A DNA stretch of 64,000 bases from positions 4,960,001 through 5,024,000 of the forward strand of contig NZ_CP108487.1 of NCBI RefSeq assembly GCF_036226525.1, read 5' to 3'. Source of the stretch: Kribbella sp. NBC_01245 (GTDB lineage: Bacteria > Actinomycetota > Actinomycetes > Propionibacteriales > Kribbellaceae). Each line of letters opens with the position of its first letter. The first letter of the stretch is position 1. Position numbers and translations under genes: made by a program. Shown in pieces: positions 2,203-15,885 of this stretch. The notes beneath the pieces are model-generated. The model saw nothing but the letters and a program-made list of their open reading frames with translations. It searched no databases and had not been told where the DNA came from.

Positions 2203-5200
2203 ATGCGAATTCTGCGGTTGGTCCTACCTGGTCTCCTCCTCCTCGGCCTGACTCCCGCTCCGGCGGAGGCGGCACCACCACCGGTCTGGGTGCAGAACGC
2301 ATCCGACCGACTCTTCGTCTCGTCGGTCCGGCCGAACAACGCGCCGACCGCGATCGACCTGTATGCCGCCAGGAACGAGACCGAGGCGGCCCAGATCGCC
2401 GTACGGCCTGGCGCCTCGATCTCCGGCGTCTTCGTCGACGCGACGGCGCTGACCGGCCCGGGTGGCGCGACGATTCCCGCGGCGAACGTGACGGTTCGGC
2501 GCGAGTACAACCATCCGAACGTCTGGACTCCTGGCGGCGTACAGCCCGAAACACCTTCGGGCGCCAACACCCCGCGGTACGACGCGCTGGTGGAGAACTC
2601 GGCGACAACGCTCGCCGCCAACGTCACCCAGCCGTACCACTACAGCGTTCACGTGCCGACCGGTCAGGCGCCGGGCGTCTACACCGGCACCGCCACCGTT
2701 CGCAGCAGCGCGGGCGATGTCGCCGTACCCGTGCGGGTCACGGTGTACGACACGACTCTGCCGAAGACGGACCAGGCGACGTTCAAGGTGAACAACTGGA
2801 CCACCTCCGCGGGCTGGGACTACGACGGCACGGTGAAGGCGATCCCGATGCAGTACGGCGTGCAGATGTACGACGCGAACTGGTGGAAGGTGATCGAGAA
2901 CATCGCCAAGAACCACGCCAAGCACCGCAACAACGTCGTGCACGCGGACTTCCAGGCGCTACTGATCCCGAACACCACGATCGATGCCGCAGGCAACTAC
3001 ACGTTCGGCTGGGAAACGTTCGACAGGTTCATCGAGATCTACCAGAACGCCGGCGCACTGCAGTGGATCCACACGCCGCACCTGCTGAACGGCCGGCATG
3101 AGGTCAACGGGACTTGGGTCAACCCGAAGCTCGAGATGCTGAAGAAGGTCGACGGAACCGTGCAGCGGGTGCTGGTCGATCCGCACACCACGGAGGCGAC
3201 CGCGTACCTGGACAAGCTCTTCGCCGCGCTCAAGGTGCACCTCGATGCCAAGGGCCTGACCGACAAGTTCTACATGAGCGCGAACGACGAGTCGCGCTAC
3301 GTCGAGGACTCGAACGCGGCCAACTGGCTCTACGACGTCTACCGCCGGCACTTCCCGAAGCCGCTGCTCAACGAGGCCGAGCTGGCTGTCCTCAACCCGA
3401 CGGCCAGGACCACGGCGCACACGCCGAAAATGGATCTCTACGAGGAGCAGGTCGGCCTCTACCAGCGCAAGCGTCTGGCCGGCGAGGAGCTCTGGCTCTA
3501 CAACTGCATCGAGCCGCAAGGCCCGTACATGAATCGCTTCACCAGCCAGCACCTGAGCAAGACGCGATCGACCTTCATGCTGGCGTGGAAGACCGGCGCG
3601 GTCGGCTACCTGCACTGGGGCTGGAACTACTGGTTCCAGAACGTCGGCGGGCCGTACATCCAGTTCGACACCTTCAACGGCTCGCAGAACGGCGACCACT
3701 TCCTGGTCCGGCCGAACCGCGCGGCGTACGACGTGTACGACAGCCTGCGCAGTGAGGCACAGCTCGACGGTATCGAGGACTACGAGCTGCTGACACAATT
3801 GGCCCGCACCAAGCCGGTGGCCGCGCGGGCGATCGCGAACAGCCTGATCAGCAGCTCGATCTCGTACGAGCTATCCGGCGAGGCCTTCAACCAGGCACAC
3901 CGCCAGATCCTCGACGCGCTCGCGGCCGGCGGTCCGGACCAGGCGTATCCCTACACGGACGACTTCGGCGCGGGACGCGACTCGTGGCGGCACTCGCGCG
4001 GCGACTGGTCCGCGAGTGGCGGCGTACTGAACCAGACGAACAACACCAACTGGAACTTCGTCGCCGGTCTGGAAGGACGCGCGTACGGCGATGTGGCCGC
4101 AAGCGTCGACCTGAAGATCAACGGCGTCAACAGCAACGGCGGTAACACCAACTGGGCCGGCATGATGGTGCGAAACCTCAACATCAACGATCTGGACAGC
4201 GGCTATCTCATTGCCCAGCGCAACAATGGCGAGGTCTTCGTCTATCGCAGTGGCGAGCGGCTTGCGTCGGCGCAGGTGCCGGGCTACACGCCTGGCCAGT
4301 TCAGCAAGTTGCGAGTCGTTGCTCGCGGCAACACCATCACCGTGTACGGCGGCAACAACCCGGCACCGGTATTGACCGTCTCCGACTCGTCCTTCAGCGC
4401 TGGCGGGTTCGGGCTGGTGACGGGTGGCGCCAGCGCCTCGTTCGACAACGTACGCCTCAACCCCGAGACGAACCCGGCCGAGGCGCGCCCCGTCACGGTC
4501 AGCTCGACGTACGACGGTGACGGCTGGAATCCCCGCGCCGCGGTGGACGGCCGCCGTACGTCGGAGGCGGGCGCGGCGGGCTGGACCAGCGCGGCCGCGA
4601 CGAGTGCGACCGACGCGCAGTCGATCCAGGTCGACCTCGGTTCGGTCCGGCCGGCGAGCCGAGTGGACCTCTATCCGCGATCGGACGGCGCGAACGCGGG
4701 CCGGGGGTTCCCGATCGACTTCACCATCGAGGTGTCGGCCGACGGCTCGAGTTGGTCGACCGTGGCGGACAAGCAGGGTTATCCGCGACCGACGGCGACC
4801 TTGCAGGCGTTCCCGTTCGTGGATCGGCCGGTTCGGTTCGTGAAGGTGACCGGGAAACGGCTCGATACCGACAACTTCGGCACTTACCGGATGCAGTTGG
4901 CGGAGCTGGAAGTTGCTGGGGGCAACCTTGCGGCCGGACGACCGGTGACGACGTCGAGCTCGGTGGAGTACACGAACGAGGGCTGGTTGCGGTCGAACGC
5001 GACCGACGGTGTGCGGCAGTCCTTGCTGTGGAACTCGATGGGCTGGAGCAGTGACGCCGTCGCCGCTGGAACGCCGCAATCGTTGCGGGTCGATCTCGGT
5101 GGACCGAGCATGGTCGGCCGGGTCGATCTCTACGCCCGTAGCGACGGCGCCAACACCGGCGGCGGATTCCCGATCGACTTCACGATCGAGCTCTCGTCCG

Positions 5201-5379
5201 ATGGGGTTTCTTGGACGATGGTTGCCACGGTGGTTGGCCAACCGTTGCCTGGGGCAAATGCGTTGAGCCGGACGTGGTCACCGACGACCGCTCGTTATGT
5301 GCGGATCACCGGCACCAACCTGAGGCCCGACGGCCCGAGTGGTCATCGGATGCAGTTAGCCGAGGTCGAGGTCAGATGA
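2203..5379 (+). CDS. Secreted GH123/DUF4091-family glycoside hydrolase with two discoidin domains (copy 1)
   Basis: A 1058-residue exported protein. Residues 1-24 form a signal peptide ending in AEA. A beta-sandwich and TIM-barrel region (about 30-560) matches the DUF4091/GH123 catalytic family. The adjacent acid pair expected for substrate-assisted catalysis on N-acetylhexosaminides is at D362-E363 (FYMSANDES). Residues about 588-755 form a concanavalin-like jelly roll (WAGMMVRNLNINDLDSGYLI), and about 765-905 and 915-1058 are two F5/8 type C (discoidin) sugar-binding domains with repeated RVDLYxRSDGAN motifs. RBS GGAG precedes the ATG. A full-length paralogue is at 12634-15885. Family members act on terminal GalNAc, but the substrate here is not shown. 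Confidence 0.87.
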   Translation: MRILRLVLPGLLLLGLTPAPAEAAPPPVWVQNASDRLFVSSVRPNNAPTAIDLYAARNETEAAQIAVRPGASISGVFVDATALTGPGGATIPAANVTVRREYNHPNVWTPGGVQPETPSGANTPRYDALVENSATTLAANVTQPYHYSVHVPTGQAPGVYTGTATVRSSAGDVAVPVRVTVYDTTLPKTDQATFKVNNWTTSAGWDYDGTVKAIPMQYGVQMYDANWWKVIENIAKNHAKHRNNVVHADFQALLIPNTTIDAAGNYTFGWETFDRFIEIYQNAGALQWIHTPHLLNGRHEVNGTWVNPKLEMLKKVDGTVQRVLVDPHTTEATAYLDKLFAALKVHLDAKGLTDKFYMSANDESRYVEDSNAANWLYDVYRRHFPKPLLNEAELAVLNPTARTTAHTPKMDLYEEQVGLYQRKRLAGEELWLYNCIEPQGPYMNRFTSQHLSKTRSTFMLAWKTGAVGYLHWGWNYWFQNVGGPYIQFDTFNGSQNGDHFLVRPNRAAYDVYDSLRSEAQLDGIEDYELLTQLARTKPVAARAIANSLISSSISYELSGEAFNQAHRQILDALAAGGPDQAYPYTDDFGAGRDSWRHSRGDWSASGGVLNQTNNTNWNFVAGLEGRAYGDVAASVDLKINGVNSNGGNTNWAGMMVRNLNINDLDSGYLIAQRNNGEVFVYRSGERLASAQVPGYTPGQFSKLRVVARGNTITVYGGNNPAPVLTVSDSSFSAGGFGLVTGGASASFDNVRLNPETNPAEARPVTVSSTYDGDGWNPRAAVDGRRTSEAGAAGWTSAAATSATDAQSIQVDLGSVRPASRVDLYPRSDGANAGRGFPIDFTIEVSADGSSWSTVADKQGYPRPTATLQAFPFVDRPVRFVKVTGKRLDTDNFGTYRMQLAELEVAGGNLAAGRPVTTSSSVEYTNEGWLRSNATDGVRQSLLWNSMGWSSDAVAAGTPQSLRVDLGGPSMVGRVDLYARSDGANTGGGFPIDFTIELSSDGVSWTMVATVVGQPLPGANALSRTWSPTTARYVRITGTNLRPDGPSGHRMQLAEVEVR

Positions 5380-6010: not shown

Positions 6011-6976
6011 TCAGCAGGCGTAGGAGCCGTTCGGGTGCACCTTTTCGCAGTAGCGGACGTGCAGGTGGTTGTCGTGGTTCGCCTCGTGCGTGGTCAGACC
6101 CTCGTTGATCAGGGTCGGATCGTTGAAGAAGATGAACCGGACGTGCCCGGGTGCGGCGGCCCGGATGGCCTGGACGAGTTGGCGGGTCGCGGCTCGGTCG
6201 TACGTCGTGCTCTGCCAGGTGATCCGGCTACCGGTGCACTGCGCGTTGTCGGTGCGGATCGGCCACATGTCGATGTCGAGCCCGACCTCGTGACTACCGT
6301 GACCGGGGATGTCGCCGCCGTGTTCGAACGAGGCGTCGCCGTACGGCACCTGGCCTTGGCTGGTCGACGCGAATGAGCGTGCCGCTTGTTCGAGCTGGGC
6401 GATCGCGGCAGCCGTTGCCCAGTTGGCGGTGGTGTTGCCGTCGGGGTTCTTGTCGCAGAAGTTCGCGTTGAAGTCCGGGTAGTCGTAGTGCCAGGTCAGG
6501 TTCTTCCAGGTGACCGGGCCGGTGATGCCGTCAGCGCCGATGCCCGCGTGGGATTGGAAGGCGGTGACGGCATCCTTCACGGCCTGGCTGTAAACGCCGT
6601 CGACCGCGAGGCTCAGCCGCCGCTTCGCGTTCAGCTCGACTTGTAATGCTCGAACGGCTGGGCCGGTGTTGCCTGGGCGGATCAAGGGAGCGAGAGCGCC
6701 CCAGGTTTGCGGGCCGACGATGCCGTCGGAGCCTAGACCTTTCGCCGCTTGGAACGCCTTTACGGCGGTCACCGTCGATGCGCCGAATACGCCGTCTGCT
6801 GGTGCTGATTGACCGTGGTGCTGGAGGAGGTACTGGATGGCGGTCACGTCCGCGCCGCGATTACCGCTGCTCTGCGTCGGGAAGAACGCGTTCGCATAGG
6901 CATCCGCGGGCGCCGGCATCACCCCCACCAGCAACAACCCCGCCACCACCTGCCCGAACCGCCGCAACCACAACAT
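6011..6976 (-). CDS. Secreted murein endopeptidase (M74/MepA-like) with two peptidoglycan-binding domains
   Basis: A 321-residue exported protein: signal peptide (MLWLRRFGQVVAGLLLVG, cleavage near ADA), two PG_binding_1 repeats (about 30-95 and 100-160, each with ADGVFGxxT or VDGVYS), then a zinc peptidase domain. The metal motif is GHGSHEVGLDIDMW plus HDNHLHVRY near the C-terminus, as in penicillin-insensitive murein endopeptidases (HxxxGxxxD and HxH). It would cut peptide cross-links in cell wall. The ATG at 6976 has GGAGG five bases upstream; an upstream in-frame start at 7003 would spoil the signal peptide. It lies just upstream of the nitroreductase gene on the same strand. Confidence 0.87.
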   Translation of the reverse strand: MLWLRRFGQVVAGLLLVGVMPAPADAYANAFFPTQSSGNRGADVTAIQYLLQHHGQSAPADGVFGASTVTAVKAFQAAKGLGSDGIVGPQTWGALAPLIRPGNTGPAVRALQVELNAKRRLSLAVDGVYSQAVKDAVTAFQSHAGIGADGITGPVTWKNLTWHYDYPDFNANFCDKNPDGNTTANWATAAAIAQLEQAARSFASTSQGQVPYGDASFEHGGDIPGHGSHEVGLDIDMWPIRTDNAQCTGSRITWQSTTYDRAATRQLVQAIRAAAPGHVRFIFFNDPTLINEGLTTHEANHDNHLHVRYCEKVHPNGSYAC

Positions 6977-7078
6977 CCCAGCCTCCACCCAGTAGCGAAC
7001 CAACCCCGGTAAGTAACCAACCCCACCGCGCCACCTTCAGCCAATTTCCTCCCACCCGCAACCCCCAACCCCCAATCC

Positions 7079-7446
7079 CGCCAACACCGGCACCAGGCTT
7101 GCGGTCGGCACCCCTCAGCCCTGCGTCGATTGGTCTGGATTCGCCCGCTGCGAGGGGGTTCAGTTTTCCCAATTTGGCCGCGCGGGCGAATCCTGACGAA
7201 TCGACGCTAATCGCGCGCCAGGAACCACGCCGGCCGGGTCAAAAGGCCCCGAGGAAGGTCATCCGTCGACCGGCATTAGCGACGATTCGTCCGGATTCGC
7301 CCGCACGGCCATAGTCGGAAAACCTCACGCCGCCGCAGCGGGCGAATCCAGACCAATCGACGCAGGGCTGAGGGGGTGCCGACCGCGGGCGTGGTGCCGG
7401 TGTAGGCGTGGTGAGGTGCGGACCGCAAGCCTGGTGGCGGTGTTGG
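7079..7446. repeat. Long near-palindromic fold-back element (arms about 133 bp)
   Basis: This region between the endopeptidase and the YciO-type gene has no credible gene. Segment 7079-7211 is the near-perfect reverse complement of 7275-7408, leaving a 63-nt GC-rich loop. Outer arm landmarks are CCAACACCGGCACC on the left and GGTGCCGGTGTAGG on the right; inner landmarks are GCGGGCGAATCC (7182-7193) and its complement at 7292-7303. The outer right end is duplicated: 7421-7446 matches the left end (7081-7106) better than the intervening copy does. No transposase is present. It may be a MITE-like or fold-back element, and as RNA it would form a very stable hairpin after the YciO-type gene. Confidence 0.85.
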
Positions 7447-7451
7447 TGGGG

Positions 7452-8072
7452 TTACTCGAAGGGGGTGGGGTCGCCGGCGCCGATTCGGACGACCTCGGGG
7501 ACGTCTTCGGAGAAGTCGATGACGGTGGTGGGGTCGGTGCCGCAGTCGCCGGAGTCGATGACGGCGTCTACCGCGTGGTCGAGGGCTTCTTTGATCTCCC
7601 AGCCCTGGGTCATCGGCTCTTCCTCATCGGGGAGCAGCAACGTCGTCGAGAGCAACGGCTCCCCAAGCTCAGCCAAGAGAGCCTGAGTGACCACGTGGTC
7701 AGGGATGCGCACCCCGACAGTCTTCTTCTTCGGGTGCATGAGCCGGCGCGGGACTTCCTTCGTCGCCGGGAGGATGAACGTGTAGCTCCCGGGAGTAGCC
7801 GCCTTCACCGCACGGAAGACCGTGTTGTTGATGTGCACGAACTGCCCGAGCTGAGCGAAGTCCTGGCAGACCAGCGTGAAGTGATGCCGGTCATCGAGCC
7901 GGCGGATCTGCCGGATCCGCTCGAGCCCTTCCGCATTACCCAGCTGACAGCCGAGGGCGAAACAGGAGTCCGTCGGGTAGGCGATCAGCCCGCCGGACCG
8001 GATCAGGTCCACCACCTGCCCGATCGCACGCTTCTGCGGGTTCTCCGGATGCACGTCGAAATACCTGGCCAT
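7452..8072 (-). CDS. YciO/YrdC/Sua5-family protein (L-threonylcarbamoyladenylate synthase type)
   Basis: A 206-residue protein covering one YrdC domain. It shows GGLIAYPTDSCFALGCQL near residue 28, RIRQIRRLDDRHHFTLVC (the K/R-rich ATP-binding region) and a conserved GVRIPDH motif. YrdC/Sua5 proteins make threonylcarbamoyl-AMP for the tRNA t6A modification. The short form without the Sua5 extension is closer to YciO, whose role is less clear. The stop codon lies five bases from the long palindrome. The ATG at 8072 is single and well placed. Confidence 0.88.
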   Translation of the reverse strand: MARYFDVHPENPQKRAIGQVVDLIRSGGLIAYPTDSCFALGCQLGNAEGLERIRQIRRLDDRHHFTLVCQDFAQLGQFVHINNTVFRAVKAATPGSYTFILPATKEVPRRLMHPKKKTVGVRIPDHVVTQALLAELGEPLLSTTLLLPDEEEPMTQGWEIKEALDHAVDAVIDSGDCGTDPTTVIDFSEDVPEVVRIGAGDPTPFE

Positions 8073-12633: not shown

Positions 12634-15600
12634 CTAGCGAGCTTCGAGTTCGGCCAACTGGACGCGGAGTTCACCACCCGGCGCCGGTTGCACCTTGGTC
12701 GCGACGACCCGGACATACCGCGCGCTAGTTGCCGTGAAGGTGAACGACTGCGCCAGCTCATCCGGCTTCGGGTATCCCGTTTTGGTGACCACCGGCGTCC
12801 AGGTCGAGCCGTTCAGCGAGGTCTGGATCTCGAAGTCGACCGGGAAACCCGCGCCGGTGTTCGCGCCATCACTGCGAGCGAACAACGCCACCTCTTTGAT
12901 GCCGGTTACCGCACCGAGGTCGACCGTCGCGGACTGCTGCCCGGTCGTGAACGGCTCACTGGTCCACCCCAGCGAGTAGCCCAGCACCGAGTGGGTCAGC
13001 CCGTCGGTCAACGCGCTCCGGCGCCAGCCGTTGTCGTGGAACTCCGATGACGAGGACGCCGTCACCGCACGACCGGCGGCATAGTTGCCCCCAGCAACTT
13101 CTACCTCGCCGAACTGCATCCGGTAATGCCCGAACGGATCCTTGCTCAGCTTCGTCCCGGTGACCCGAACGAACCGAACCGGCCGCTCCGCGAAGGCCGC
13201 ACCCTGCGCACCAGCTGCCGGACGCGGTACGCCCTGCCGCGAGGCGACCGTCGTCCAAGCCGAACCATCCGCCGAGATCTCGACGGTGTAGTCGACCGGG
13301 AATCCGATACCCACATTCGCGCCATCCGCGCGCGGCCAAAGGTCCACCCGGCCGGCCTGGACCGCACTACCCAGGTCAACCGTCAACGTCTCCGTGTGGT
13401 CAACGTCGATTTGGCTGTTACTGCTCCACCCAAGTGCGCCCGCGACCGCTCCGGTGAAACCATCGACGGCGAAGCGCGAGTTCCAGCCGTCGCTGTCGTA
13501 CGAGCTGCTCGTCTGGATCGCGGCACCCACGGCCGGGTTGGTGAAGGGATGGACCCGCAGGTTGTCGAACCGGGCCGCGGTACCACCGGTCACCAGGGCC
13601 ACGTGGCCGACGGCGTACGCGTCATCCGTGACGGTCAGCAACGGCGCCGCGTTCGCCCCGACGTACACGCGAATTTGCTTGCCCTTGGCAATGACCCGCA
13701 GATGCGTCCACTGGCCGGGCTGGTAGCCGGGGATCTGCGCCTTGCCGATCTCCTGGTCACCGCGATGCAGGAAGACCTCGCCGTTGTTGCGAATGGCCGC
13801 GAGATATCCGGTGTTGTAGTCCGTCGCGTTGACGTTGCGGACGACCAGTCCGGCCCAGTTGTTCTGGCCGCCATTGCCGGCGACACCCGTGATCCGCAGG
13901 TCGGCGTCGGCCACCAGGTCGCCGTACGAGCGGCCCTCGATCGCGGCGGCGGCCGAGTACCAGCCTTCTTCGAGGCGCGACTGAACCAGCTCGCCGCTCT
14001 CGGTCCGCCAATGACCAGTGGGCTGGCCGTTGCCGTCGTCGACCGCGAACCGCAGGTTGTCCGTACCCGCCGCGAAGTCGTCCGTGAGCGGTCCGTCGGT
14101 CCGGATGTCCGGCGCCGGCGAGACCAGCGCCGCCAGGATCTGCCGATGCTTCTCGTACACGGACGCACCGGAGCGCTCGTACGACGAGAAGTCGGTGATC
14201 AGGGATTCCACGATCGCCCGGGCCAGGTTCGGCTTGACCGCGGCGAGTTTGGTCAGCAGCTCGAAGTCCTCCTGCCCATCGAGCTGAGTCTCACTGCGGA
14301 CGCTGTCGTACACGTCGAGCGCGGCACGGTTCGGCCGGACGATGAAGGTGTCGCCGGTCTGCGGCTCGTCGAAGGTGTTGTACTGGCGCGCGTTGTCGTT
14401 GGTCCAGCGATGCCAGTAGTTCCAGCCCCAGTGCAGGTAGCCGGTGCCACCGATCTTCCACACCAGCCAGGGCAGCAGCCGGGTCTTCGCGAGATGCATG
14501 CCGATCAGCCGGTTCATGTGGAAGTTCTGCGGCACGATGCAGGTGTAGAGCCACAGGTCTTTGCCCGCCCGCTTCTGCGCCTGCCAGAAGCCCGCGTGAT
14601 CCTCATAGTTCTCGGTGTACGGCGTGACCGTGCTGACGCGCTGCGCCGCCTCCGGCAGGAAGCTGAAGCCGTACGCCTCGTTGGTGCGCGGATTCGGGAA
14701 GTAGTCGTCATAGAGGTCGTAGAACCAAGCGGCAGCCGTTGCCTGGTTGGGATGCGTCGGCTCGTCCAACGCGCTCATGTAGAAGTTCTCGGCCCAGCCC
14801 TTGGCCACGAGGTGCTCGCGCAGCTTGGCGAACATCATCTTCAGGTACGACGTGCTCTCGGTGGTGTTCGGCGGAACGAGCACGCGCTGCACCTGCCCGT
14901 TGACGTTCTTCAGCATCTCCAAGTGCGGGTCTTCGGCACCGTTGGGGCCAGGCTCGAGCAACGTCGGGGTGTAGATGTACTGCATCGCGCCCGCGTCCAC
15001 GAACAACTGCACGAACCGGTCGAAGTCCGTCCAGTCGATCAGGTAATTGCCCTGGGCATCGATCTGCGTGCGCGGCCGGATCAGCGCCTGGAAGTCGGCG
15101 TACACCAGGTTGTTGCGGTGTTTCGCCTGGTTCCGGGCGAAGCTCTCGATCACCTTCCACCAGTTCGGGCTGAAGGCGGCGGCATTGTCGTACTGGAACG
15201 GGATCGCGCGCTCGGTGCCGGAGTAGTCCCAGCCGACCGACGTGGTCCAGCCGTTCATCTTGAACGTCGACTGGTTGGCCGGCGGTACGTCGACCGGATA
15301 GACGACGACCGTGACGGGCACGACCGTGTCGCCGCCGCTGCTGCGAACCGTCACCGAACCGGTGTAGGCGCCGGGCGCCTGACCAGCGGGGACGGAAACG
15401 CTGTAGTGGAAGGCCTGCGTGTATCCGGCCGGGACGGACTTCGGCGTGTTCTCGACGAGTGCGTCGTAGTAGTCGTTCTGGCCGTTCGGCGCTCGGTCGA
15501 TGTCGGGCATCGGGCCGAGCTCCGCGCCTTCGCCGCCGATCAGGATGTTCGGGTGGTTGTACTGACTGCGCAAGGTCACGCTGGTTACGGGGATGGTCGC

Positions 15601-15885
15601 GCCGCCCGGGCCGGTCAGGGCGGCGGGCTGGGCCAGCTGGGCGCCGGTGACGTTTTGGTCGGGGCGGAGCATGATCTGCGCTGCCTCCACCTCGCCGCGA
15701 GCCGCGTGCAGGGTGATCGTGGTGGGCGCGTTGGCCGGCCGGGGTGTCGACGAGAACACGTGGTCGGCGGCGTTGTGCACCCAGACGGCCGGCGGCGCCG
15801 CGGTCGCCGGAGGTGTGAGCAGAGTGCCGGTCAGCGCGACCAGCACGCCGATGCCGACGGCCCGCGCGGTTCGCAGTGAGCTCAT
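12634..15885 (-). CDS. Secreted GH123/DUF4091-family glycoside hydrolase with two discoidin domains (copy 2)
   Basis: A 1083-residue paralogue of the protein at 2203-5379 with the same order: signal peptide (cleavage near ATA), GH123/DUF4091 region (about 30-575), jelly-roll domain (about 595-780) and two F5/8 type C domains (about 790-935 and 940-1083). The paired acids are D374-E375 in FYMSALDEP, closer to the usual GH123 form than the ANDES of copy 1. Shared landmarks include HWGWNYW and FxVRPNRAAxDVYDS. RBS GAGAGGA precedes the ATG. It is divergent from an MFS gene. Copies differ enough to suggest different substrates rather than a recent duplication. Confidence 0.87.
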   Translation of the reverse strand: MSSLRTARAVGIGVLVALTGTLLTPPATAAPPAVWVHNAADHVFSSTPRPANAPTTITLHAARGEVEAAQIMLRPDQNVTGAQLAQPAALTGPGGATIPVTSVTLRSQYNHPNILIGGEGAELGPMPDIDRAPNGQNDYYDALVENTPKSVPAGYTQAFHYSVSVPAGQAPGAYTGSVTVRSSGGDTVVPVTVVVYPVDVPPANQSTFKMNGWTTSVGWDYSGTERAIPFQYDNAAAFSPNWWKVIESFARNQAKHRNNLVYADFQALIRPRTQIDAQGNYLIDWTDFDRFVQLFVDAGAMQYIYTPTLLEPGPNGAEDPHLEMLKNVNGQVQRVLVPPNTTESTSYLKMMFAKLREHLVAKGWAENFYMSALDEPTHPNQATAAAWFYDLYDDYFPNPRTNEAYGFSFLPEAAQRVSTVTPYTENYEDHAGFWQAQKRAGKDLWLYTCIVPQNFHMNRLIGMHLAKTRLLPWLVWKIGGTGYLHWGWNYWHRWTNDNARQYNTFDEPQTGDTFIVRPNRAALDVYDSVRSETQLDGQEDFELLTKLAAVKPNLARAIVESLITDFSSYERSGASVYEKHRQILAALVSPAPDIRTDGPLTDDFAAGTDNLRFAVDDGNGQPTGHWRTESGELVQSRLEEGWYSAAAAIEGRSYGDLVADADLRITGVAGNGGQNNWAGLVVRNVNATDYNTGYLAAIRNNGEVFLHRGDQEIGKAQIPGYQPGQWTHLRVIAKGKQIRVYVGANAAPLLTVTDDAYAVGHVALVTGGTAARFDNLRVHPFTNPAVGAAIQTSSSYDSDGWNSRFAVDGFTGAVAGALGWSSNSQIDVDHTETLTVDLGSAVQAGRVDLWPRADGANVGIGFPVDYTVEISADGSAWTTVASRQGVPRPAAGAQGAAFAERPVRFVRVTGTKLSKDPFGHYRMQFGEVEVAGGNYAAGRAVTASSSSEFHDNGWRRSALTDGLTHSVLGYSLGWTSEPFTTGQQSATVDLGAVTGIKEVALFARSDGANTGAGFPVDFEIQTSLNGSTWTPVVTKTGYPKPDELAQSFTFTATSARYVRVVATKVQPAPGGELRVQLAELEAR

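Follow-up and report, generated by a model that had tools for sequence, protein, structure and literature searches.

A near-palindrome at positions 7079–7408 of a 64,000-nt stretch of the Kribbella sp. NBC_01245 genome (hereafter the window; all positions refer to it unless stated) probably belongs to a family of mobile, non-autonomous palindromes that is restricted to one species, with arms homogenised by fold-back template switching. Direct support comes from repetition, restriction to one species, empty sites in relatives, gene-end location, lack of target duplication and covariation between arms. From these we infer a mobilising enzyme, and template switching as the cause of the covariation.

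Structure of the window palindrome

A first-pass annotation had described a long near-palindrome, and it is real: the arms are 88–89% complementary, in a gapless pair of 101 nt (7111–7211/7275–7375, 88%) and a second pair of 36 nt (7079–7114/7373–7408, 89%). Folded with RNA parameters, the palindrome reaches -304 kcal/mol (shuffles -185 +/- 6.6), and a z of -18 puts it far from chance. Counting both the 12-base motif GGATTCGCCCGC and its complement, there are exactly four occurrences, whose orientation alternates (7137, 7182, 7293 and 7338), just as had been described. An additional outer copy on the right was also confirmed: 7415–7466 is 81% complementary to 7061–7112, and GACCGCAAGCCTGGT in this extra copy is closer to the left outer arm than the proximal right copy is. 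Outer segments are tandemly repeated at other copies of the family too, which explains the duplicated right end.

The annotation missed that the arms are imperfect palindromes in their own right. The window copy is a dimer of two imperfect hairpin units of about 85 bp, inverted around a 71-bp centre and flanked by mirrored outer segments of about 44 bp (Table 1). Each unit has 26-bp stem arms and an inner part of about 33 bp (~35 bp). The segment is absent from congeneric spacers and the ORFs across it are merely mechanical, consistent with the reported lack of coding content. It is the only element of its family in the whole window. Two long window ORFs, 2203–5379 (+, 1058 aa) and 12634–15885 (-, 1083 aa), resemble paralogues and bracket the palindrome in opposite orientations.

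Table 1. Parts of the window palindrome and its flanking genes
Feature	Position	Strand	Remark
Flanking gene, peptidoglycan-binding / Peptidase_M74-like	6011–7003	-	Start codon 75 bp from palindrome
Left outer segment (CGCCAACACCGGCA...CAGCCCT)	7079–7122		Mirrored at 7364–7408
Left ~85-bp hairpin unit	7123–7207	+	Stem arms 7123–7148 and 7182–7207
71-bp centre separating units (TAATCG...GGCATTA)	7208–7278
Right ~85-bp hairpin unit, inverted	7279–7363	-	Stem arms 7279–7304 and 7338–7363
Right outer segment, proximal copy	7364–7408
Right outer segment, second copy	7415–7447		Best pairing with left outer arm; similar outer repeats at other copies
Flanking gene, Sua5/YciO/YrdC family	7452–8072	-	Stop codon 43 bp from palindrome

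A repeat family at gene ends

The annotation had proposed a blastn search of the same genome. Searching the 8.68-Mb genome with 7061–7466 gave 67 matches, including about 15 full dimers (type A) that are 66–79% alike. The palindrome is multicopy, and the number of copies genome-wide led us to reject a single local regulatory structure. A related type B has about 42 copies, 190 bp to 1.4 kb long and about 80–90% alike. Some B forms reach 1.4 kb with terminal inverted repeats of about 290 bp; the ORFs inside the long forms have no Pfam domain. One such pair (L175:1184–2571 and L176:1139–2573, about 91% identical) has non-coding interiors rich in smaller palindromes. Type C, an 88-bp hairpin (CTTTGCATTCATTCGTCGGAATCCGCCCTC...GAGGGCGGATTCCGACGAATGAATGCAAAG) with symmetric ends (CTTTGCATTC...GAATGCAAAG), came up by chance within the examined loci, and 33 copies were collected. 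Unit size is 84–90 bp. The B/C stem pattern matches 337 times in the genome; since a C copy gives two matches and a B copy usually one, we estimate about 140 C copies and roughly 200 elements in total.

Blastn found no palindrome in 39 relatives. The A and B/C motif patterns were absent from 37 congeners, from 394 other actinomycete genomes of the class and from viral contigs, and blastn against plasmids and phages gave no match; a phage or plasmid origin was rejected accordingly. GTDB-wide, the A pattern has a single exact match, in a Phycisphaerales MAG; no hairpin surrounds this match, and it was taken as chance. Judged by these fixed patterns, which could miss a strongly diverged relative, the family is confined to one species among the 37 congeners and 394 class genomes examined.

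With related copies across the genome and none in the 37 sister species, the palindrome is best seen as an insertion of a repeat family. The spacer between the YrdC-like and peptidoglycan-binding genes is 448 bp in the window. In three congeners (G052, G049 and G024) these two genes are separated by about 90–320 bp that do not contain the element, which supplies the empty sites that the annotation had looked to relatives for. The outcome that it had set against its own proposal, one copy only, conserved alongside its neighbour, is not what the genomes contain: the copies are many, and the empty sites exclude conservation with the neighbouring gene.

Copies lie mostly directly after stop codons. 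Thirteen of 18 A copies are at most 60 bp from a stop codon, with gene calls around them made by a GC3 heuristic. The 40 classified A and C copies occupy 15 convergent, 23 tandem and 2 divergent spacers, whereas the 34 window spacers longer than 40 bp comprise 7 convergent, 18 tandem and 9 divergent; copies thus avoid divergent spacers (2/40 vs 9/34). One C copy provides the last residues and the stop codon of the preceding gene, and congener versions of that gene are about a dozen codons longer.

Target duplications, also expected by the annotation, were found flanking neither A nor C, where direct flank repeats of 2–10 bp do not exceed the cross-copy expectation. At both C copies examined for their neighbours (L238:761–940 and L248:733–934), the flanking genes are non-adjacent in every congener examined, so the exact junctions are unreadable; these copies possibly mark points of deletion or rearrangement.

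Arms that change together

Pairing holds in 95.5% of the stem cells of 41 aligned units (90.3% when shuffled, 0/500), and two-sided stem changes number 52 against 15.1 +/- 2.7 in shuffles, with sliding controls nowhere near; these strengths are approximate because the shuffles ignore the shared ancestry of the copies. Just 8 one-sided wobble states occur, and G-U intermediates are nearly missing; columns 20–73, for example, read C-G in 27 units and T-A in 14, and no intermediate is seen.

The covariation is centred on the 85-bp unit. With three divergent copies left out, inverted motif partners of the same unit agree far more than shuffles do (z = 4.5 and 4.4), those facing each other across the long hairpin agree less (z = 1.2 and 2.1), and direct repeats, for which pairing is impossible, show no agreement (z = 0.4 and 1.1). 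When all 16 dimers are included, all pairs associate, the direct repeats among them (z = 4.3 and 5.0). Outer segments of A copies match within a locus more than between loci (z = 5.0). The flanks of C copies are mirrored locus by locus to about 12 bp past the motif (390 vs 299 +/- 10, 0/2000), which could alternatively arise by insertion into palindromic targets.

Template switching homogenises inverted repeats and makes double substitutions (PMC8604942, PMC8794818). The pattern here is the one expected of DNA fold-back template switching, and unlike that of stepwise RNA selection. As in quasipalindrome correction, both arms change together (PMC8604942, PMC8794818); in contrast to that process, the correction here would act on a dispersed family with nested units, and it is read from sequences rather than from events.

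Alternatives and candidate movers

Strong stem covariation also speaks for selection at the RNA level, in which a family of bidirectional terminators or of hairpins at mRNA 3' ends would have spread, its pairing kept by selection on transcripts. Copies close behind stop codons and between convergent genes suit this explanation, but the gene-end position equally fits mere tolerance. Mismatches on the likely transcribed (read-through) strand do not favour G-U (36, against 34 A-C), so strand asymmetry gives no signal of RNA selection, and 302 of the 463 mismatches, two thirds, are non-wobble. A scan of 6900–7600 for intrinsic terminators (a short G+C stem with a T run behind it) gave 0 sites, and the C copies, with T on their upstream and A on their downstream side, are arranged the opposite way round to a terminator. 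No Rfam family fits: the best scores against Rfam 15 are 24 and 15 bits, with gathering cut-offs of 62 and 100. The structured RNA that the annotation had suggested finds no backing here, and we regard RNA-level selection as rather improbable. Still less probable, to the point of being very unlikely, is that a protein of replication or chromosome organisation binds or anchors at the copies and that this usefulness has multiplied them. In most of the retrieved C copies both arms carry the stem TTCATTCGTCGGAATCCGCCC free of mismatches and the loop is variable, as might be expected of such sites, but the low-mismatch search pattern itself selects conserved stems, and absence from all sister species examined argues against a core function.

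An ordinary MITE, descended by internal deletion from a DDE insertion sequence whose transposase moves it via the terminal inverted repeats, is unlikely, though less so than either of these. The annotation's 'MITE-like fold-back element' holds as far as dispersed non-coding copies and empty sites go; target duplications and a parent transposon were not found. Like MITEs, the elements are short, non-coding, multicopy and dispersed, with terminal inverted repeats (about 290 bp in the long B forms) and empty sites in relatives. Unlike MITEs and fold-back elements, their units are nested and dimerised, with homogenised arms. A MITE would need an insertion sequence with ends matching GCGTYGATTSGTC or GCATTCATTCGTCGG, and among the loci examined we found no transposase linked to the family or sharing its ends. 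Several B loci contain IS30-family copies, but their ends differ from those of all three types. They appear to have arrived later, as passengers: they are mostly about 99% identical to one another, B copies are only about 80–90% alike, and they are seated inside another palindrome. We rejected the IS30 transposase as the driver for its differing ends and its position.

REP and BIME elements are high-copy extragenic palindromes, often inverted dimers, with some species-specific families; most are found near stop codons, in the spacers of tandem or convergent gene pairs (PMC3733652). The present family resembles REP/BIME/REPIN elements (GTAG and CGTC families) in its high copy number, extragenic position, inverted dimers and location at convergent and tandem gene ends. 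It differs in unit size (84–90 bp with an inner part of about 35 bp, vs 20–40 bp), in lacking the unpaired GTAG or CGTC tag at the stem end (CGTC lies inside the stem) and in that no RAYT gene flanked by the repeat was found. None of the known REP, RAYT or Rfam families fits. The genome has one partial match to PF01797 (Y1 transposase), with no A, B or C motif closer than about 3.8 kb. We rejected a RAYT as driver, since this sole Y1 fragment is decayed, lies beside a TnpB gene and is unlinked to the motif. At that locus (L249:53–1700, genome ~1476945–1478600), an IS605-type TnpB gene (481 aa) adjoins the decayed TnpA (Y1) remnant. Integron attC core sites did not fit the elements either in an informal comparison by eye.

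The best reading is therefore of REP/BIME- or MITE-like non-autonomous mobile palindromes. They belong to neither class, because unit size, tag and RAYT depart from REPs, and target duplication is absent and a parent not found for a MITE. The basic unit would be the fold-back hairpin of about 85 bp, with the window copy an inverted dimer carrying mirrored outer segments. Copies would have spread without duplicating the target site, probably through an enzyme supplied in trans that recognises the hairpin. The analogy is with TnpA-REP, which is thought to act in trans on REP hairpins. Copies would persist chiefly directly after stop codons, as the least harmful sites. Fold-back template switching during DNA synthesis would then copy a change from one arm to its partner, and in this way the arms would stay complementary once an element is in place. 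The low similarity among A copies indicates that many insertions are old; any present mobility is conjectural.

More tentatively, the family may be a novel class: a one-species mobile palindrome moved by a non-REP enzyme without target duplication, its nested arms continually rewriting each other. This is possible, though we would not bet on it. If true, hairpins could persist and grow outwards despite sequence change. The expansion of large palindromes in a single species whose relatives keep empty sites offers a clean natural system for asking what moves REP-like palindromes without a dedicated transposase, and whether DNA template switching rather than RNA selection can give stem covariation. 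It also carries a warning, as covariation by itself is no proof of a functional RNA.

The IS30 copies (L179:1238–2907, genome 3101237–3102906; also L139, L140, L144, L183, L184 and L185) lie between the halves of a separate palindrome (GTGGGTTACCACC...), which brackets them at the B loci as GTGGGTTACCACCYCG.../...CGRGGTGGTAACCCAC. Their position suggests palindrome-directed insertion.
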